Source: an uncultured Bacilli bacterium
GTDB lineage: Bacteria > Bacillota_I > Bacilli_A > RF39 > UBA660
Assembly: GCA_944358455.1 (NCBI GenBank)
Contig: CALVRE010000008.1
Span: 1 to 60,359, forward strand
Direction of reading: 5' to 3'
DNA length: 60,359 bases
Shown here piece after piece: positions 33,192 to 47,405 of the stretch. A program made the translations under genes and the position numbers. Below the pieces are notes generated by a model. The model saw only the letters and a list, made by a program, of their open reading frames with translations, did not search any database and was not told where the DNA came from. Within the stretch, counting starts at the first letter, position 1. Every line of letters starts with the position of its first letter.

Positions 33192-34076
33192 ATGAATCCA
33201 GAACAAAATCATTTTAATAATTCTAATCAAGTAGGGAATACCAATATTCCAAACAATCAAGTATTGACCAACAATAGAAATTTAAATAATTCGATCAATC
33301 AAAATGAGATGAATCCATCTTTCGCATCTGATTCAATGCTTACACCAACAGATGGAGGAAACACGGATTCTGCATTAGAAAATCATATGATAAATAACTC
33401 ATCAAGTTCTAATTTGACGAATCAATCTAATCGGTTTATTCCATCATCGATGAACGAATCAGAAATCGATCATCAAGCAGCGTTAAATTGGGAAAATGTT
33501 TCAATGCCAAAGAATTTTTCATCATTTGGAAATATTCCACCATCGACGAATGAACAAAAAAGGGATGTTCATATAAATAATCAACCTAATCCAGTTCCTA
33601 ATGTTGATTTAATGACATCGCCAAATAGAGAGGGAGACTTTGAAAGACAATCAGGTAATGTGATCAATGATCAAGAACTTTTAAAAGCATTTATTGGATT
33701 TAACTATGAAAAGATTACGACAAGAGCTTTTAATTGGAGTGGTTTTTTCTTTACGTATAGTTATGTTTTATACCGTAAAATGTTTCTATATTGGCTTTTG
33801 TTACAACTTTTCGATCTGATCTTATTGAATAATATTATAGCAACGTTGATTATTGGTGTCATTTTTGGATTTGCCGTTAACCCAGTCTATCTTGCTTTTG
33901 CCAAGCGAAAAATTAAGGAAATAAAAGCAAAGAATCCAAATAAAAGCATGGGAGAATTAAAAACGATATGTGCTATCAAAGGTGGAACAAGTATAGGAGT
34001 GGTTCTTTTACTTATCATTTCACGAGTCTTCATTATAATTGGCATCCTATACATTATGGCATCGGCATTAACGTAA
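33192..34076 (+). CDS. DUF2628-type membrane protein with a long Asn-rich N-terminus
   Basis: A 294-residue protein. Residues 1-~160 are very rich in Asn, Ser and Gln (NNSNQVGNTNIPNNQ) and are probably disordered. Residues ~175-294 form a DUF2628-like module: a FNWSGFFFTYSYVLYRKMF motif and three TM helices. The strong ribosome site is TAGGAGTG. It is controlled by the G10 leader upstream and ends at a shared terminator. Confidence 0.7.
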   Translation: MNPEQNHFNNSNQVGNTNIPNNQVLTNNRNLNNSINQNEMNPSFASDSMLTPTDGGNTDSALENHMINNSSSSNLTNQSNRFIPSSMNESEIDHQAALNWENVSMPKNFSSFGNIPPSTNEQKRDVHINNQPNPVPNVDLMTSPNREGDFERQSGNVINDQELLKAFIGFNYEKITTRAFNWSGFFFTYSYVLYRKMFLYWLLLQLFDLILLNNIIATLIIGVIFGFAVNPVYLAFAKRKIKEIKAKNPNKSMGELKTICAIKGGTSIGVVLLLIISRVFIIIGILYIMASALT

Positions 34077-38373: not shown

Positions 38374-38631
38374 TTATGAAGCGTGTTGCGATACTTCTGT
38401 CATGCAAAACAATTGATCAACATTGACACCTAGTGCTTTGGATATTTTCAAAATGACGGTAAGAGAAACATTCTTGTATTCTTTTCCCGATTCTATTTGT
38501 TTGATATACGAAGTACTCAGGTCGCAAAGTTCCGCAAGTTCTTCTTGCGTCATATTAATTTTCTTGCGATAATGACGAATATTATTGCTGAAAATATTAT
38601 ATTGAGTTGCGATTTCTTTATTACTGATCAT
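38374..38631 (-). CDS. XRE-family DNA-binding protein
   Basis: An 85-residue protein that is essentially one Cro/CI-type helix-turn-helix: NIRHYRKKINMTQEELAELC and STSYIKQIESGKEYKNVSL (~residues 17-70). It is divergent from a second XRE gene at 38760, and the ~130-base space between them probably holds both promoters and operators. The targets are unknown. Confidence 0.8.
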   Translation of the reverse strand: MISNKEIATQYNIFSNNIRHYRKKINMTQEELAELCDLSTSYIKQIESGKEYKNVSLTVILKISKALGVNVDQLFCMTEVSQHAS

Positions 38632-38759
38632 AGTTGCACCCCTTTATGGAATATTTTTCCAAAATTCTAACAGTTTTATTTTCTCATATTTCTGTTAGAA
38701 ACACAGTACACCGATAGTGGACTATTTATGCTATAATGAGATTAGAAAAGAGGATTTTT

Positions 38760-38978
38760 ATGTATCGAAAATTAAAAGAACTGCGTAAAAAAAAGAAGCT
38801 AACAACGATGGATATGGCTGAAAAACTAGAAATTAGTAAACCATTTTATTGTCAACTTGAAAATCAAACAAGAAGATTATCTTATGATATGGCGGTTAAA
38901 ATTGCAGGTGTTTTTGGTATGAAACCAGATAGTGTTTTTTATCATGATCACACGAATAGGGAAAATGAGGAAAATTAA
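38760..38978 (+). CDS. Small XRE-family DNA-binding protein
   Basis: A 72-residue protein with a helix-turn-helix: LKELRKKKKLTTMDMAEKL and KPFYCQLENQTRRLSYDMAV (~residues 4-45), ending in an acidic tail. The ATG at 38760 fits the AGAGGA ribosome site; an in-frame ATG at 38736 would lie on the -10 TATAAT (38731-38736). It precedes the primosome genes by 69 bases. Confidence 0.78.
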   Translation: MYRKLKELRKKKKLTTMDMAEKLEISKPFYCQLENQTRRLSYDMAVKIAGVFGMKPDSVFYHDHTNRENEEN

Positions 38979-39047: not shown

Positions 39048-40331
39048 ATGATCAAGAAGAATGTTCTACCAGCCGATACTTTTGTCGTCATCAATAAAAC
39101 CGTGCTGAATGATCAAGATCGCAAATTATTAGTCATGCTTTATCAACCAATTATTGGACAAGTTGCGATCAGTCTTTATTTTTCTCTTTGGTCCTATTTA
39201 GATAAAAATGAATTGTTCTCGAAAGAATGGACACATCATCATTTAATGACGAATATGAGAATGAAATTATCAGAGATTATTGAGGCAAGAGAAAAATTAG
39301 AAGCGATTGGATTATTAAAATCTTATTTTAAGACAAATCATATTAATCATTATGCTTATTTGTTATATTCACCAATGCCAGCAAGTGAGTTTTTTAAAAA
39401 TCCCATTTTGAGTACGTCACTATATAATAATGTAGGAGATACTGAATACAATAAAACGGTCGAATATTTTCGTATGCCTTCTTTAAATCTAAAGGATTAT
39501 GAAGAGGTCACTTGTCATTTTGATGAAGTGTTCGAAGCCATTCCTACATCATCTTTGGAACATTTAGTAGGAGATATCAAAAGGAGAAATCACAATCCTA
39601 TCGAATTGTTGTCAAAAATTGATATTGACAATGTTTTTTCCTTGATTCCTGATGAACTATTAAATCGGAAAAGTATTACCAAAGAAACGAAAGATCTAAT
39701 TTATAAAATTAGTTTTGTCTATAACTTGAGTGAGGATGAGACAAGTGAATTAGTTCGAAATTCGATCAATGAAAAGAAGATGATCGATAAAGATCGTTTA
39801 CGTAATAACAGTCGAAAATATTATCAATTTGAACATAGTGGTAAATTGCCAAGTCTTGTCTATCGTAATCAACCAGAATATTTAAGAAAGCCAGTGGGTG
39901 ATACTTCGCCAAGAGCCAAGCTGATTTATCAATTTGAAACGACAAGTCCCTATGATTTCTTATGTCGCAAGAATAAACATAATACTCTTTCCAAGAGTGA
40001 ACGTGATATTTTGAGCTATCTTGCTCTTGATTTGAACATGAAGCCAGGAGTGATGAATGTTCTTCTTGATTATGTGTTAAAAATCAATGATAATAAATTG
40101 AATCGTTCATTTGTCGAAAGTATTGCTGGGCAATGGATGCGAAGTAATGTTCAGACGGTCGAGGAAGCGATGATGCTCGCCGAGAAAGAGTATCAAAAAC
40201 GCAATCGATTAGTGACAAAGAAGAAGAATGTGGTTGCGAAACCAGATTGGTTTGACAAAACAATCGAAAAACAGGAAGCATCGATCGATGAACAGAAAGA
40301 AATGGAAGAACTGTTAAAAGAATTTCAGTAA
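39048..40331 (+). CDS. dnaB: Replication initiation / membrane attachment protein DnaB
   Basis: A 427-residue Gram-positive DnaB (not the helicase) with DnaD-like modules. The N-terminal winged helix (~1-120) shows LLVMLYQPIIGQVAISLYFSLW. The C-terminal DnaD/DnaB-type helical domain (~290-370) shows LSYLALDLNMKPGVMNVLLDYV and NRSFVESIAGQWMRSNVQTVEEAM. It helps load the replicative helicase with DnaI. It ends 11 bases before dnaI. Confidence 0.88.
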   Translation: MIKKNVLPADTFVVINKTVLNDQDRKLLVMLYQPIIGQVAISLYFSLWSYLDKNELFSKEWTHHHLMTNMRMKLSEIIEAREKLEAIGLLKSYFKTNHINHYAYLLYSPMPASEFFKNPILSTSLYNNVGDTEYNKTVEYFRMPSLNLKDYEEVTCHFDEVFEAIPTSSLEHLVGDIKRRNHNPIELLSKIDIDNVFSLIPDELLNRKSITKETKDLIYKISFVYNLSEDETSELVRNSINEKKMIDKDRLRNNSRKYYQFEHSGKLPSLVYRNQPEYLRKPVGDTSPRAKLIYQFETTSPYDFLCRKNKHNTLSKSERDILSYLALDLNMKPGVMNVLLDYVLKINDNKLNRSFVESIAGQWMRSNVQTVEEAMMLAEKEYQKRNRLVTKKKNVVAKPDWFDKTIEKQEASIDEQKEMEELLKEFQ

Positions 40332-40342
40332 GTAGGTGAGTT

Positions 40343-41245
40343 ATGAAAACATTAGAAGAAATCAATCATTATCACGTAAACAAAAATCATCTGGCAAAAG
40401 AATACCTAGATGCATTAAAAGATCCTACTTTTAAAGAATTGACGGAAATTTTGAACCTACCAGATGAAATTTTGATGAAATATACTTCGATGTTACAAGA
40501 TAGTGCTATCGAATATGAACATTGTAAAAATTGTAAAAATATTTTGGCTTGCAAAAATAAATTGACAGGATTTTGTTATCTTCCTCATGTTTCCAATGAT
40601 GGATTGATTTTTGGCTATCAAGCTTGTAAATTTCAAAAGAAAAAGCAAAAAGAAAGCGCCTATTTAAACAATATTTATCTATTCGATGTTCCAAACGAAA
40701 TAAAAGAAGCCAAAATGTCGGACATTTATAAAGATGATAAAAGTCGTTTTAAAGCGATTAAATGGCTTACGACCTTTATCAAAAATTATCCTGATGTTTC
40801 CAAGGGATTATATTTATATGGAAACTTCGGATGTGGAAAAACGTATTTAATTGCAGCTACTTTTCACGAGTTAGCCAAAAAAGGCGTGAAGAGTGCGATC
40901 GTGTTTTGGCCAGAGTATTTACGCGACTTAAAAGCTTCCTTTGCGACTGATTTTAGTGAAAAATTTGAACGATTAAAAAAGATACCGTTACTTTTGATCG
41001 ATGATATTGGAGCAGAGAATACAACGGTGTGGAGTAGAGATGAAATCTTTTGCCCACTTGTGCAATATCGCATGCAGGAAGGATTACCAACTTTCTTTAC
41101 TTCCAATCTAACTTTGGAGGAATTAGAAAGTCATTTCAGCATTAGTAAGGAAAGTGTTGACCAAGTAAAGGCAAGACGAATCATCGAACGAATTCGTCAA
41201 TTGACAGAAGAATTACAAATGATTAGTAAAAATTTACGAAAGTAA
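40343..41245 (+). CDS. dnaI: Primosomal helicase loader DnaI
   Basis: A 300-residue AAA+ loader. The N-terminal zinc-binding helicase-interaction domain has CKNCKNILACKNKLTGFC (~55-75). Walker A is GNFGCGKT (~155), Walker B is LLLIDDIGAE (~213), and the arginine finger region is RRIIERI near the end. It loads the replicative helicase at oriC and during restart. It is followed after ~20 bases by an unusual RNB-like gene. Confidence 0.92.
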   Translation: MKTLEEINHYHVNKNHLAKEYLDALKDPTFKELTEILNLPDEILMKYTSMLQDSAIEYEHCKNCKNILACKNKLTGFCYLPHVSNDGLIFGYQACKFQKKKQKESAYLNNIYLFDVPNEIKEAKMSDIYKDDKSRFKAIKWLTTFIKNYPDVSKGLYLYGNFGCGKTYLIAATFHELAKKGVKSAIVFWPEYLRDLKASFATDFSEKFERLKKIPLLLIDDIGAENTTVWSRDEIFCPLVQYRMQEGLPTFFTSNLTLEELESHFSISKESVDQVKARRIIERIRQLTEELQMISKNLRK

Positions 41246-41266
41246 TCAATGACAGGGTGGTGCAGT

Positions 41267-42760
41267 ATGGACAAACGAGCGAAACAAATTGGAATCTATT
41301 TAAAAAAATATGGGAAAACTTCGGTTTCTGGATTACGCGATTTTTCACATGCAAAATCCGATATTGAAACCTTACATTTTATCTGTGATGTGATGAATGA
41401 TGAAATCGATGACTTATGTGCCATCCGTCATAACAAACAATTAGCTCATTATTTTGAAAGTTATTTATCATCTATGGAAGAAGTGCGCTTAAGAAATCTA
41501 GAGGGAATTGAACGCATAGTAGCACGCCTTAACAAATTTCAAAAAAAGATCGATTTCGCATGTCATAAAAATGCGAAAAAGGGAAGGAAAAATGATACAT
41601 TCATAGAATCACGTACCAATTTGAGAAAAGTCAATAGCAAGTTAAAGGGTGTTATTGACTTTTTGTGTCTTAAGGAGCTTTCATTTCCACATATTACCAC
41701 TAAACAGGAAGCGTTACAAAGATCGCTTGCAGAATTATATCGTTTACTCTATGACCCAAAATTGAAGCAATTAACCGATCAACAAAAGAAGAGAATCCAA
41801 AAAGATTGGGGAAAGTTAATGCTTCTGGCAGAACAAAAAACATTGACAGAAGTAGATGTTCAAACATTAAAAAAACGTATTCATTCCTTTATGATGGAGC
41901 GTGTAGAACAAATGGATATCGAAGATAATCCGTATGTGTTGGATTTTACCAATAAAAAAGTGTTTACGATCGATACAAGACAAGCGATTTTATTAGAAGA
42001 TGCCTTTTGTATTGAATGGTTATCGAATAATCACATCTATCTTTATGTTTTTATCTCTGATTGTACTTATTTATCCGATGATAAATATCGTTATGAAAAA
42101 ACACCGTATCTTTTGAATCGAGAATTTAATTCGAAACAGTCATTTTCTTTTGGAAAGAATAAAGTACAACCAGCTTTGATGATCCGTTTAGAATTCGATG
42201 AAAACGATCGATATCTAGGAAATCCGTTCCTTTTTCGTACTTATATCAAGTTAGATGAGACGTTTTCTTATGAAGATGTCGATTATATTTTATATGAAGA
42301 AGGAGGAAAAAAAGATGAATATTACACCATCTTAAAAAAAGCACAGTCTTTATCACAACATCTAATTCGGAGTCAAGAAAAGAAGGAAAAGGAAGAATGT
42401 AAGACACGAAAAATGAGAGGGGGAGAAGCCATCGTCGAAGCTTTTATCAATACGACAGGTTATGTGATTGCAAGTCTATTCTATGACGAGAAGTTGCCAG
42501 CTATTTATCGAAGAAACGATACCGAAGATATTATATCTTATGATTCTTTAAAACCAGGACCACATCGATTATTACAGTATCCCGTCTACTGTCAAACGTT
42601 TAAACCATCTAAAAATGCTTCTGCGGCTTATATGTTACGTGCAACCAAAGAATTTTTGATCGATCGTAATATATTCGCCGAAAATCGATTACAAGCTTAT
42701 CTAGAGGAAGCAAGATCTTGTATAGAAGAACAAGAAAAGAAAAAAATATTAGAACATTAA
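41267..42760 (+). CDS. Divergent RNB-fold protein with impaired active site, copy 1
   Basis: A ~497-residue protein. The N-terminal half is helical. From ~residue 230 it follows the RNase II/R catalytic (RNB) domain: VFTIDTRQAILLEDAFCIEW, ALMIRLEFDENDRYLGNPF, ETFSYEDVDYIL, and EAIVEAFINTTGYVIASLFY then LPAIYRRND. In active enzymes four Asp follow the pattern D-x5-D-x-D-D. Here they read D236, Leu242, Glu244 and Asp245, so catalysis is doubtful. The ATG at 41267 follows AGGGTGG. It sits in the dnaB-dnaI operon. Confidence 0.65.
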   Translation: MDKRAKQIGIYLKKYGKTSVSGLRDFSHAKSDIETLHFICDVMNDEIDDLCAIRHNKQLAHYFESYLSSMEEVRLRNLEGIERIVARLNKFQKKIDFACHKNAKKGRKNDTFIESRTNLRKVNSKLKGVIDFLCLKELSFPHITTKQEALQRSLAELYRLLYDPKLKQLTDQQKKRIQKDWGKLMLLAEQKTLTEVDVQTLKKRIHSFMMERVEQMDIEDNPYVLDFTNKKVFTIDTRQAILLEDAFCIEWLSNNHIYLYVFISDCTYLSDDKYRYEKTPYLLNREFNSKQSFSFGKNKVQPALMIRLEFDENDRYLGNPFLFRTYIKLDETFSYEDVDYILYEEGGKKDEYYTILKKAQSLSQHLIRSQEKKEKEECKTRKMRGGEAIVEAFINTTGYVIASLFYDEKLPAIYRRNDTEDIISYDSLKPGPHRLLQYPVYCQTFKPSKNASAAYMLRATKEFLIDRNIFAENRLQAYLEEARSCIEEQEKKKILEH

Positions 42761-42775
42761 AATATAGGAGAAAAT

Positions 42776-44731
42776 ATGATAAAAGAAACAGAAATAAAAG
42801 AACAAATAAAAAGAGTACTATCACGACCGAATTTGCCGTCGTTTTCCAAGTTTAAAGAAATGATTGATCCCACTTTATCGGATGAACTTTTTTATCGCTT
42901 GATTTTGACTTATTTAAAAGAAGAAGTAGAAGAATTTAAAATGACGAGAACGTATGAAAAGAATCGTCATCTAAAAAATTGTTTTCATTACTTGAATTAT
43001 GTACCTTCACATCTTGATTTATATGATGATAAAGCCTTTTTCGAAGAAGTATCACTCACCTTACAAGATATTCAAGATATCATCCAAATAAAATTATCTG
43101 ATAAGATGATGGTAGGTCCAGAGACAACTCTCGATCAAAATCGTGATCTTTTGATACGATTAGAAGAAGAATGCCAACAATTCTTTCAAAAACATCGAAC
43201 AATTCCTTTCTTACTTTCCCATAATGGAAACGAAATGTATCGCTTTTTAAAAGAGCTTATTTTTTCTAAAGAATACGATCATTATAATTATTATAGTTAT
43301 ATTCGTAATCTTATCCAAAATCTTCCAAATACTGTCAATACACAAAATGAAGAAGGTACTTTCCTTCTAGAAGAATTAACCCATTATTTTGCCACCTTGC
43401 TAGAGGAAGATCACGATTATAATGAAAAAGTGAGAATGGAACGAGTATTGATGTTGTTTCTAGAGTCACCTTCACTAGAAGTTCCAATTTATTCACTTAG
43501 CAATATCTTATCAAAAACATCGAATCACTTAATCAAGCAGAAGAGAAAGACCGATCTTAGTTTGATGAAAGAATTGCTTGAAGTTGTCAACGATGTTCAA
43601 AAAAGACAGGTACTGTGGTTGGAAAAAGAACGAAAATTAAAAGAAAAGTATCATCTTTATTCCGATTTTACGCTCGATGAATTAGAAGAGATTCGTTCAT
43701 TAACGCCTATCGATTTCCATCGTTATATCGATGAAACGAATCAAAATACAATCACCATTGATTCTAGTATGAATAAAATAAAAGAACAGGCGATTTTCTA
43801 TGAACGAGAAGGAAAAGATCATCATGTCATCTTTTATGTGATCGATATCTTACCATATTTACTTCCCGATTCAAAGTTGGATGAACGAGCACGTTCGATC
43901 GCGAAAGAAACGACGAAAGTAGAAAGTTTTCTTCCACCAAGCTTTTTAAAACGCCACTTATCATTTGAAAAAGAACAAGTAAGGCCCGCTATTGCTTTCG
44001 AGTTTTGGATCGATGGGGAAGGAAATCTGAAGGAGAGTACGATCAAGCGATCTATCATTTGTGTGAAGAAACATTATGATTACGAAATGATTGGTGATAT
44101 TTATTTAGGGAACATTGGAGCGAAAAAATTACAAAATGACATCGAAAATTTATATTATTTATCAGAATTATTAAAGAAGAGAGGAAAACAAAGAATTGTC
44201 AAACGTCATTTAAAAGAAAAGGTATGGAAAGAATATACGGAAACAGGTAAGAGGCCTCTTTATGTTGCTGGCCAAATTAATGAAACAATCGCCAAAAAAG
44301 TAAGTGAATATTTACGCACGTTTGATCTTCCTTTGATTGACCATTGTTATGGAAAGACAAAGAATATTATGGAAACACATATTTCGAAATATTTTTCCAA
44401 TCAAGAGAAATGCGAGCGACTAATTCAATTATTTGATCCTGCCAAAACATATTCTTCCTTCTATATACCAAACAACCAAAGGATATTGGAAGAATCTTCT
44501 TTTCAAAGACAAATTGAGATCAGTCGTCCAGCAAGAAGTTATGCATCATTGTTAAATCTTCGTCTCATTGCATATTATTTATTAGACGATAAAGAATTAG
44601 GGTTCGCTTATATACAAAATTTAATCGATCATTTAGAGGATGAGTGTGAACAGATGAATGGAAAACGAATGCGTGAACTTTACTATGAAGCTGAACGAAA
44701 AAGTCTAACACTAAAAAAAGAGAACAAATAG
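42776..44731 (+). CDS. Divergent RNB-fold protein with lost active site, copy 2
   Basis: A 651-residue protein with a ~320-residue helical N-terminus. An RNB-like middle follows: TITIDSSMNKIKEQAIFY, VIFYVIDILPYLLPDSKLDERAR, RPAIAFEFWIDGEGNLKES. A C-terminal part with YVAGQINETIAKKVSEYLR is like the RNB substrate clamp. Of the four catalytic Asp positions only D329 remains (others are Ile335, Glu337 and Gln338). It is arranged like copy 1 and is probably an old duplication. AGGAGAAAAT precedes the ATG. Confidence 0.6.
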   Translation: MIKETEIKEQIKRVLSRPNLPSFSKFKEMIDPTLSDELFYRLILTYLKEEVEEFKMTRTYEKNRHLKNCFHYLNYVPSHLDLYDDKAFFEEVSLTLQDIQDIIQIKLSDKMMVGPETTLDQNRDLLIRLEEECQQFFQKHRTIPFLLSHNGNEMYRFLKELIFSKEYDHYNYYSYIRNLIQNLPNTVNTQNEEGTFLLEELTHYFATLLEEDHDYNEKVRMERVLMLFLESPSLEVPIYSLSNILSKTSNHLIKQKRKTDLSLMKELLEVVNDVQKRQVLWLEKERKLKEKYHLYSDFTLDELEEIRSLTPIDFHRYIDETNQNTITIDSSMNKIKEQAIFYEREGKDHHVIFYVIDILPYLLPDSKLDERARSIAKETTKVESFLPPSFLKRHLSFEKEQVRPAIAFEFWIDGEGNLKESTIKRSIICVKKHYDYEMIGDIYLGNIGAKKLQNDIENLYYLSELLKKRGKQRIVKRHLKEKVWKEYTETGKRPLYVAGQINETIAKKVSEYLRTFDLPLIDHCYGKTKNIMETHISKYFSNQEKCERLIQLFDPAKTYSSFYIPNNQRILEESSFQRQIEISRPARSYASLLNLRLIAYYLLDDKELGFAYIQNLIDHLEDECEQMNGKRMRELYYEAERKSLTLKKENK

Positions 44732-44746
44732 AATAGGAGAGTACTT

Positions 44747-45370
44747 ATGACAAAAAATCGAAAAAAAGGAAATAATTATGGTATAAAAGGATATACGATA
44801 CCAAATTTTTTAAATACTTATTTCAATGTTGATAACGAGGAGATGTTGGAACTTTTATTTATTCAGTTTCATTTTACACATAAAGAATTAAGACAATATA
44901 TTGCTCTTTTACGAAGCCAATTGCGAGATCATTTGAGAACACGTGGAATGAATACGGATCAACAACTAAAAGAAGACTTGATAAAATTGCGATCAGATAT
45001 TACGAAATTAGAAAAAATACCATTTGAAAAAAATCAGGAATCCCATATTCGTCTAAGAATTAAAGCTGAGAAAAAACGTCAATTGGCAAAAGTATTATTG
45101 ACGAATACGATGACGATCTTTTGTGACGATAAAGATATCGTAACCTTAAATAAAGTTTGTAGAGAATTAAGGAGAATTCACACGGATAATATCACAAGCG
45201 AAGATATTTTAAAAGGAAATGTCGTAAAAGTTTACGATAGTAGGGGAGAAGGAGCCTACTATTTAGTGCCAGGAAGAACATTATGTTTAGAAAATACGTA
45301 CATGACAATGGAACAAAAAGAAACGATCGAAGCGACCAAGAAACATTTCCTCTTGTTTCAATCAAAATAA
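44747..45370 (+). CDS. Hypothetical protein downstream of the RNB-like pair
   Basis: A 207-residue, basic, mostly helical protein; residues ~55-135 look like a coiled coil (RQYIALLRSQLRDHLRTRG, RLRIKAEKKRQLAKVL). No family is recognised. It is last in the dnaB-dnaI-RNB-RNB series, with short spacing (15 bases to the previous gene) and a TAGGAGAG ribosome site, so it may work with the two RNB-like proteins. Confidence 0.55.
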   Translation: MTKNRKKGNNYGIKGYTIPNFLNTYFNVDNEEMLELLFIQFHFTHKELRQYIALLRSQLRDHLRTRGMNTDQQLKEDLIKLRSDITKLEKIPFEKNQESHIRLRIKAEKKRQLAKVLLTNTMTIFCDDKDIVTLNKVCRELRRIHTDNITSEDILKGNVVKVYDSRGEGAYYLVPGRTLCLENTYMTMEQKETIEATKKHFLLFQSK

Positions 45371-45400: not shown

Positions 45401-45640
45401 TTGACAAAAAGATAAGTTCGTAATAAAATGAATTCATAAATGCCATGAATAGGACACGATTTTAAAGAAGGGAATGCAAAGCGAGTTAGGATGGTGAAAG
45501 CTAACCAGGACCCTTTAAAGTTACTACCTAGGAGCAGAACAAGTAAAAGTTGTTCCGGTTTGAAAGCCGTTATCAAAATAAAGCTACAAAGTAGGATGGT
45601 ACCGCGTGATAACGCTCCTTATATATTAAGGAGCTTTTTT
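45401..45640 (+). promoter_or_regulatory. Promoter and threonine T-box leader
   Basis: The promoter TTGACA (45401-45406), 17 bases, TAAAAT (45424-45429). The T-box AGGATGGTACCGCG lies at 45593-45606. The specifier ACT (Thr) at 45523-45525 sits in the context ACT-ACCTAGGAG. The terminator is GCTCCTTA / TTAAGGAGC with Ts (45614-45640). The leader is read-through only when uncharged tRNA-Thr binds. Confidence 0.93.
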
Positions 45641-45662: not shown

Positions 45663-47405
45663 ATGCAAAATATTAAAGAAAATGAAGAATTAAGTAAATT
45701 GAATCATAGTTGTGCTCATTTGCTTGCACAAGCTGTAAAACGTCTTTATCCAGATGCCATGTTTTGGGTAGGACCAGTTATCAACGAAGGTTTTTACTAT
45801 GATATGGATCTTGGCGATAAAGTCGTAACAGAAGATGATCTAGAAACGATTTCGAAAGAAATGAAGAAGATCGTAAAAGAAAATAAATTGATTAAACGAA
45901 TTGAACTTTCCCGTGAAGAAGCCTTAGAAATGTTTAAAAATGATCCATATAAAATCGATTTAATCAACGATATGGAAGAAGGGACGACAATTACGGCTTA
46001 TACGCAAGGAGAGTTTACTGATCTATGTCGTGGACCTCATGTAGAAAGTACGAAGTTACTCAAACATTTCAAATTGTTAAAAGTTAGTGGAGCTTACTAT
46101 AAGGGGGACTCCAAAAATAAGATGTTACAACGTATTTATGGTATTTGTTTTCCAACTGAAGAGGAGCTCCAAGCTCACCTTGATTTCTTAGAAGAAGCAA
46201 AAAAACGTGACCACAAGAAACTGGGAAAAGAATTAGAATTATTTATGTTTAGTGAATATGGACCAGGTTTTCCTTTCTGGTTGCCAAATGGTATGATCTT
46301 GCGCAATGTACTAGAAAATTTCTGGTATGAAGAACATACCAAAGAAGGATATCAATTCATTAAAACACCAATTATGTTGAATCGTGATTTATGGGAATTA
46401 TCAGGCCATTGGAAAAATTACAAAGAAAATATGTATACTTCGAAGATCGATGAGAAAGAGTTCGCAATTAAACCTATGAATTGTCCAGGAGGATTACTCG
46501 TTTACAAGAATAAATTACATTCTTATAAAGATCTTCCAGAACGTGTTGGAGAACTTGGACTTGTTCATCGTCACGAAGCCAGTGGAGCTTTAAATGGGTT
46601 ATTTCGCGTTCGTACGTTCACCCAAGATGATGCGCATATTTTTATGAGAGAAGATCAAATCGAAGAAGAAATTATTCGTTTAATTGCTTTCATTGATCGT
46701 ATTTATAAGTTATTTGATTTGCCTTATGAAATCGAACTTTCTACTCGTCCTGAGGAGAAATATATCGGATCGATTGAAATTTGGGATAAAGCCGAAGCAA
46801 CGTTACAAGAAGCTTGCCGTAAGTCTGGAAAAGAGTGTAAAATCAATCCAGGTGATGGAGCTTTCTATGGACCAAAACTTGATTTTCATGTCAAAGACTC
46901 TCTAGGACGCGTATGGCAATGTGGAACGATCCAATTAGATTTTAATTTACCAGAGCGCTTCGATTGTACTTACATTGATTCTGATGGAATGAAAAAACGT
47001 CCTGTTATGTTACATCGTGTCATCTTTGGATCAGTAGAACGTTTTATCGGTATCTTAATCGAACACTATGCTGGAGCATTCCCAACTTGGCTCGCTCCTG
47101 TTCAAGTGAATATTATTCCTGTCAACCAAGAATATCACCTCGCATATGCGGAAGAAGTAAAAGACTTACTCGAGTCTCATGGCATTCGTGTAACACTCGA
47201 TAGCCGTGATGAAAAATTAGGATATCGTATGCGTGAAAGTCAAACGAAAAAGATTCCATATTCGTTAGTGATTGGAGACAAAGAAAGAGATCATCGTGAA
47301 ATTAATTTCCGTCGTCATGGTTCTAGTGATACTACGACTTTAAAATTGGAAGACTTTGTATCGATGATAGAAGAAGAAATTAAAAATAAAGTAAATAATA
47401 AGTAA
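45663..47405 (+). CDS. thrS: Threonyl-tRNA synthetase, lacking the N-terminal TGS domain
   Basis: A 580-residue class II synthetase. It starts directly with the editing (N2) domain: LNHSCAHLLAQAVKRLYPDA, with the second metal motif CRGPHV near residue 120. Core class II motifs include RHEASGALNGLFRVRTFTQDD and VMLHRVIFGSVERF. The zinc ligand region has PMNCPGG. The C-terminal anticodon domain ends in NFRRHGSSDT. Typical ThrRS is ~640 residues with a TGS domain at the front, which is missing here. The threonine T-box upstream confirms the role. Confidence 0.95.
   Translation: MQNIKENEELSKLNHSCAHLLAQAVKRLYPDAMFWVGPVINEGFYYDMDLGDKVVTEDDLETISKEMKKIVKENKLIKRIELSREEALEMFKNDPYKIDLINDMEEGTTITAYTQGEFTDLCRGPHVESTKLLKHFKLLKVSGAYYKGDSKNKMLQRIYGICFPTEEELQAHLDFLEEAKKRDHKKLGKELELFMFSEYGPGFPFWLPNGMILRNVLENFWYEEHTKEGYQFIKTPIMLNRDLWELSGHWKNYKENMYTSKIDEKEFAIKPMNCPGGLLVYKNKLHSYKDLPERVGELGLVHRHEASGALNGLFRVRTFTQDDAHIFMREDQIEEEIIRLIAFIDRIYKLFDLPYEIELSTRPEEKYIGSIEIWDKAEATLQEACRKSGKECKINPGDGAFYGPKLDFHVKDSLGRVWQCGTIQLDFNLPERFDCTYIDSDGMKKRPVMLHRVIFGSVERFIGILIEHYAGAFPTWLAPVQVNIIPVNQEYHLAYAEEVKDLLESHGIRVTLDSRDEKLGYRMRESQTKKIPYSLVIGDKERDHREINFRRHGSSDTTTLKLEDFVSMIEEEIKNKVNNK

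Follow-up and report, generated by a model that had tools for sequence, protein, structure and literature searches.

Two tandem genes, here called P1 and P2, lie directly downstream of dnaB and dnaI in the draft genome (1.17 Mb, 43 contigs) of an uncultured Bacilli bacterium (assembly GCA_944358455.1, contig CALVRE010000008.1, positions 1 to 60,359; this whole stretch of 60,359 nucleotides is referred to as the window). Both encode proteins with the RNB fold of the RNase II/R enzymes in which the four-aspartate active site is incomplete, and both belong to a clade that is most simply explained by a single origin from RNase R. As the most likely role, to which we assign a probability of about 0.42, we propose that P1 and P2 are non-catalytic, RNA-binding partners or adaptors of RNase R. 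The two genes and their RNB domain matches are located as follows (aa, amino acids).

41267..42760, + strand: P1, predicted RNB-like pseudonuclease, 497 aa from the ATG (Pfam RNB, E = 2e-14; AlphaFold2 model; ribosome-binding site)
41942..42553, + strand: RNB domain match within P1 (PF00773 search of the source genome)
42776..44731, + strand: P2, predicted RNB-like pseudonuclease, 651 aa (Pfam RNB, E = 5.6e-18; AlphaFold2 model)
43736..44203, + strand: RNB domain match within P2 (PF00773 search of the source genome)

Fold and domain architecture

An original prediction, made by a model from the DNA letters and their open reading frames (ORFs), had assigned the RNB fold to both proteins and proposed a structural check, which was run here and bears the assignment out. 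The Pfam RNB matches exceed the gathering score in both cases. AlphaFold2 models were built from an alignment with relatives and without templates, with a mean predicted local distance difference test score (pLDDT) of 77 for P1 (model m0a636db342b7) and 80 for P2 (model m79dbc57dbce7). Solved RNase R is the top match of either model (P1: Z 30.7, root-mean-square deviation (rmsd) 2.7 Å, 290 residues; P2: Z 29.7, rmsd 5.7, 335 residues), with unrelated helical proteins trailing at Z values of about 10 or less. A sequence search of the PDB with P1 alone as query gave no match, and the RNB fold thus needed structure comparison.

In P1 the RNB domain comprises approximately residues 230-500 (numbering of the 503-aa ORF) and follows a helical N-terminus, while P2 consists of a helical N-terminus (1-290), the RNB fold (about 320-605) and a C-terminal helix. 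In both models the first 200-290 residues form helices; their comparison with HEAT/TOG-like and other helical proteins yielded Z values of at most 10.1, which are not informative for helical folds. Pfam detects no cold-shock or S1 domain in P1 or P2 at E-values up to 1, and both proteins miss the NCBIfam RNase_R equivalog cut-off (28.6 and 38 bits vs 597.85). With RNase R, both E. coli Rnr and the enzyme of the same bacteria, they share the RNB fold (solved RNase R is matched at Z 29-31), the motif I context TID......DDA and, in most members of the clade, a TSPIRR-type motif. Unlike RNase R, they show no cold-shock domains (CSD1, CSD2) or S1 domain by Pfam or in the models, carry the helical N-terminus, have lost the second Asp and reside beside dnaI.

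Degeneration of the active site

The incomplete four-Asp site that had been read from the letters alone is confirmed by alignment: P1 has D-L-E-D and P2 has D-I-E-Q, compared to D-D-D-D in 45/45 RNase R sequences from the same bacterial family, which we take to be, probably, GTDB family UBA660 of order RF39. Positions are given here in the numbering of E. coli RNase R (D272, D278, D280 and D281), taken from its sequence. Residues were counted in 74 dnaI-linked and 19 unlinked members, leaving aside nine very diverged or partial sequences in which the motif is not confidently alignable. The first Asp (D272) is kept in all 93. The second (D278) is Asp in none of the 74 dnaI-linked members and Glu in 24 of them; D280 is Asp or Glu throughout this group, D281 is Asp in 65/74, and the arginine R571 is retained in 68/74. 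Among the unlinked members D278 is Asp in four and Glu in nine, and all four Asp are kept in four. Taken together, these counts show that the Asp loss is graded and systematic. In the TSPIRR-type motif, P1 carries Lys-Asn in place of Arg-Arg and P2 keeps the first Arg; some members at the dnaI position are too diverged for Pfam to detect the RNB domain. Two broader statements were dropped in the course of the analysis. The whole clade does not lack an intact quartet, given the four unlinked members just mentioned, and the RNB-like genes at dnaI are not all degenerate, as two genomes (G075 and G262) carry an RNase R-like gene with an intact quartet there.

The residue losses predict that P1 and P2 are inactive as nucleases. 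Searching the literature for mutants of the second catalytic Asp gave nothing useful. That the proteins still cleave, using an altered metal site or another substrate, appears quite improbable: the Glu found at D278 in both linked and unlinked members and the four complete quartets are compatible with it, but P1 and P2 themselves have Leu or Ile at the second position and Glu at the third, P2 has Gln at the fourth, and P1 lacks the TSPIRR arginines. Fungal Ssd1 offers a different model. Ssd1 proteins are RNase II-family members that have lost the active site and are under selection; they descend from Dis3L2, keep its cold-shock domains and bind RNA with them (PMC8097288, PMC8934651). P1 and P2 could accordingly be envisaged as post-transcriptional regulators of this kind, binding mRNA and controlling translation independently of RNase R activity. 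These fungal pseudonucleases show the same change, namely repeated active-site loss with RNA binding retained, and the two models match the Ssd1 structure (Z 25.6 and 26.3). We nevertheless regard such a role as rather improbable, in that this match is no better than the one to active enzymes and the cold-shock domains with which Ssd1 binds RNA are not detected in P1 or P2. Ssd1 further differs from P1 and P2 in having no link to replication genes.

Origin from RNase R

To place the proteins, a tree of the RNB domain was calculated by a quick, non-bootstrapped search, with the four Asp columns omitted and the RNase R of E. coli as outgroup. In it all 53 members group together in a single clade (SH-aLRT 99) that excludes the RNase R genes; the same division appears in a first tree if the RNase R-like genes of G262 and G075 are assigned to RNase R. 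Compared to RNase R, the clade has exchanged the cold-shock and S1 domains for the helical N-terminus. An intact RNase R is encoded elsewhere in 36 of the 37 member-bearing genomes checked. The source genome itself has two intact RNase R genes in tandem (contig C36, about 41078-44246), an arrangement which recurs in other genera of the family.

Fusion to RNase R and the proposed role

A connection to RNase R is found in a related genus (g2). In each of its three species (G002, G252 and G287) one reading frame joins a member to a complete RNase R, yielding fusion proteins of 1278-1292 aa (L301:4609-8460; further copies on contig C47 of G252 and contig C24 of G287). The N-terminal half is degenerate (TIDDVNTSLREDA), while the C-terminal half is intact (TIDGDDAKDFDDA) and includes CSD2 and S1. 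An assembly error was ruled out, since three separate assemblies of the genus show the fusion. Related arrangements without fusion occur in G075, where dnaI is followed by a degenerate member and then, after a gap of about 6 bp, by an intact RNase R, and in G262, where a very degenerate protein precedes an RNase R-like protein. In the RNB-domain tree P1 clusters with the fused and the G075 degenerate members (support 94), and the fused RNase R clusters with the RNase R of G075 and the second RNase R of the source genome, RNase R2 (support 83). The logic of the fusion and these groupings suggest that P1 and RNase R2 work together. More generally, the fusion to a complete RNase R points to RNA metabolism.

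We therefore propose the following scenario. A lineage-specific family would have been born once from RNase R, losing the cold-shock and S1 domains that feed RNA to the enzyme and gaining the helical N-terminal domain. The dnaI-linked branch would then have lost the second metal-binding Asp, keeping the nucleic-acid-binding channel of the RNB domain without efficient 3'-5' cleavage. It is reasonable to expect that P1 and P2 bind RNA or single-stranded DNA (ssDNA). The proteins would act as non-catalytic partners or adaptors of an active RNase R, which for P1 is probably RNase R2, and their expression would be tied to the dnaB-dnaI transcription unit. A stronger version, in which the pseudo-exoribonuclease is a stable RNase R subunit that couples RNA decay or clearance to helicase loading through its place next to dnaB-dnaI, is unlikely in our view.

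Several observations weigh against the partner model. The fusion represents one evolutionary event in one genus, and P2 falls outside the fusion-related branch. At 2.3 and 2.6 changes per column, the branches to P1 and P2 are long, which leaves the places of both proteins in the tree unsure, including that of P1 on which its pairing with RNase R2 is based. The Arg-Arg of RNase R is replaced by Lys-Asn in P1, whose former active site may thus no longer bind RNA. Finally, in one genome that is 98 percent complete (G036, locus L155) only a degenerate member and no intact RNase R was found.

Distribution and linkage to dnaI

A sample of 130 distinct dnaI loci of the bacterial family was compiled, 125 of which have at least 1.5 kb 3' of dnaI. 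A member is present within the first two ORFs after dnaI in 52 of these 125 loci, in 49 cases with its start at -20 to +25 bp relative to the dnaI stop. The location after dnaB-dnaI, regarded as unusual in the original prediction, hence recurs in many genera. Conservation of the five-gene order had been put forward as a check; the core order, dnaI followed by an RNB-like gene, holds up at these loci, and the exact order dnaB-dnaI-P1-P2-P3 was found in the window's genus only (G000, G001). A class-wide sample of 198 genomes included 172 from other families; among the matches listed for it, no dnaI-adjacent RNB match outside the family was seen.

A profile of the N-terminal domain separates members from RNase R, short end matches apart, and detects members in 116/385 genomes and 57/121 genera; these numbers are slightly high owing to a few short profile-end matches in RNase R-length proteins, and at the same time a lower bound, as very diverged members are missed. 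From the profile list 40 further loci were fetched, 28 of them dnaI-linked (-23 to +16 bp) and 12 unlinked. In two genera an unlinked member lies between lepA and miaB (L295:5765-7681 and L297:3320-5164); the L297 copy has one stop in the profile match, yet a 614-aa open frame is read.

The linkage raises the question of a primosome accessory, which would bind ssDNA or RNA (e.g. nascent or R-loop RNA at oriC) and aid helicase loading by DnaB/DnaI. This possibility, which we rank next after the RNase R partner and consider doubtful, gains from the start of most members within about 25 bp of dnaI, from the dnaI linkage of about three quarters of the members with known context, and from the precedent of a nuclease-dead RNB domain in DNA maintenance, Pseudomonas syringae RNase R (PMC11375266). 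However, unlinked copies exist, members are missing from about half of the genera with dnaI in the same place, and they diverge fast while DnaB and DnaI are conserved. The copies away from the dnaI operon and the fusion to a complete RNase R thus favor an RNase R partner over a dedicated primosome part.

Selection and divergence

Members evolve much faster than their neighboring genes. Compared to the closest species, protein identity is 85 percent for P1, 74 percent for P2 and 71 percent for P3, the gene that follows P2, versus 98-99 percent for the neighbors, and in 11 of 12 other species pairs the member is more diverged than DnaI, the twelfth pair being reversed. In a backbone of 93-98 percent DNA identity, P1-P3 precisely coincide with a drop to 75-89 percent, and dS rises to 0.41-0.80 compared to 0.13-0.22 in the neighbors. 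Recombination that brought in a diverged allele could explain both. In the alignment to one close species (L175) the identity trough extends over window positions 41600-45300, and identity dips a second time, to 86-87 percent, at 33200-34000.

The three genes are under purifying selection, with dN/dS values of 0.19 (P1), 0.18 (P2) and 0.23 (P3), compared to 0.03-0.05 for dnaB, dnaI and thrS. A dN/dS of about 0.18 argues against gene debris, and together with the divergence data indicates working genes under relaxed but real constraint. That P1 and P2 are decaying, functionless duplicates is the least credible of the explanations considered: active-site loss, long branches and members below Pfam detection would fit, but the frames are open in dozens of genera, dN/dS is well under 1, the first Asp is invariant, and the conserved N-terminal domain is recognised in members outside the profile-building set. 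The identity trough and the raised dS, along with patchy presence and variable copy number, could also mark a diversifying conflict locus (e.g. phage-related) between dnaI and thrS. We consider this very unlikely, as the dN/dS values of 0.18-0.23 give no sign of gene-wide diversifying selection and no defence-type partner genes were identified, PADLOC not having been run.

The dnaI-thrS interval

Between the dnaI stop at 41245 and thrS at 45663, the ORF list contains three same-strand ORFs, which are P1, P2 and P3. The surrounding features are listed below.

39048..40331, + strand: dnaB, replication initiation / helicase loading (NF052657, E 5e-79, below the model's strict cut-off; Pfam DnaB_2 over cut-off)
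40343..41245, + strand: dnaI, helicase loader (NF006505, E 9e-75, over cut-off)
44747..45370, + strand: P3, basic protein, 207 aa (jackhmmer and alignment; no Pfam family over cut-off)
45401..45429, + strand: promoter-like site TTGACA-17-TAAAAT, 3' of P3 (consensus scan; a match only, not proof)
45436..45634, + strand: thrS T-box leader (Rfam RF00230, E 6e-17, 75.9 bits against a gathering score of 93)
45614-45634, + strand: terminator stem in the thrS T-box leader (terminator scan)

The ATG at 41267, which had already been chosen as the start of P1, is preceded by AGGGTGG and is a better start than the mechanical ORF start at 41249 (503 aa). The gap between dnaI and P1 is 3 bp from the ORF start or 21 bp from the ATG, placing P1 in the dnaB-dnaI unit, and AGGAG-type sites precede P2 and P3. 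Judged by this spacing, dnaB, dnaI, P1, P2 and P3 are probably co-transcribed. The promoter-like site and the T-box leader before thrS suggest that thrS is transcribed separately from the upstream genes, and the unit therefore probably ends at P3. Being below the Rfam gathering score, the T-box is missed by a default scan. Just 5' of dnaB, two small ORFs (38374-38631, - strand, and 38736-38978, + strand) have an XRE-type helix-turn-helix look by eye only.

Relatives of P3 are small basic proteins of about 110-320 aa which occur in the dnaI-thrS interval of many genera (e.g. L103, L104, L097, L215 and L231), with or without an RNB-like gene. The iterated search (jackhmmer) covered the ORFs of dnaI loci only, and single-pass matches outside the window's genus are modest (best 2e-9). 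As the family is present whether or not an RNB-like gene is, P3 is probably a separate resident of this interval. Distant matches of P3 to coiled-coil models, JAKMIP and RIMB1 among them, fell below the cut-off and were discarded. In L232 and L104 the P3-family ORF begins at ATGGTACCGCG of the T-box and there probably lies between T-box and thrS. In several genera (L132, L168, L157 and L163) a Peptidase_M23 gene separates thrS from dnaI or from the RNB-like gene.

Relation to known RNB pseudonucleases

Apart from Ssd1, two bacterial cases are comparable. Cyanobacterial Zam represents an RNB clade with degenerate active sites and an active RNase in the same genome; Zam retains both the cold-shock and the S1 domains, and its redox cysteines are conserved (PMC9145284). 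P1 and P2 likewise belong to a bacterial RNB clade with a degenerate site and share their genome with an active RNase, but the cold-shock and S1 domains are not detected in them, and lineage and gene context are different. In our tree, which has E. coli RNase R as outgroup and contains no Zam sequence, they group with the RNase R of their own family. In P. syringae, RNase R D284A, like the RNB domain of the enzyme alone, is protective and restores plasmid levels, and a nuclease-dead RNB domain suffices by itself for cold survival (PMC11375266); this is, however, a property of a normal RNase R and not of a separate degenerate protein. By the tests made, neither Ssd1 nor Zam nor P. syringae RNase R is, or is shown to be, a member of the P1/P2 clade, and no described family like it was found in the literature searched.

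In conclusion, the clade is real, conserved in part and undescribed in the literature searched, and represents a variant of the known idea of an RNB pseudonuclease. Such proteins are well described in fungi, and Zam is the one bacterial case found in that literature. P1 and P2 represent a second bacterial clade with another architecture, in which a series from four Asp via Asp-to-Glu substitution to complete loss can be traced. A complete RNase R, to which a member is naturally fused, is a candidate partner that can be tested, and the linkage to dnaI allows a direct test of whether RNA turnover is connected to replication initiation.

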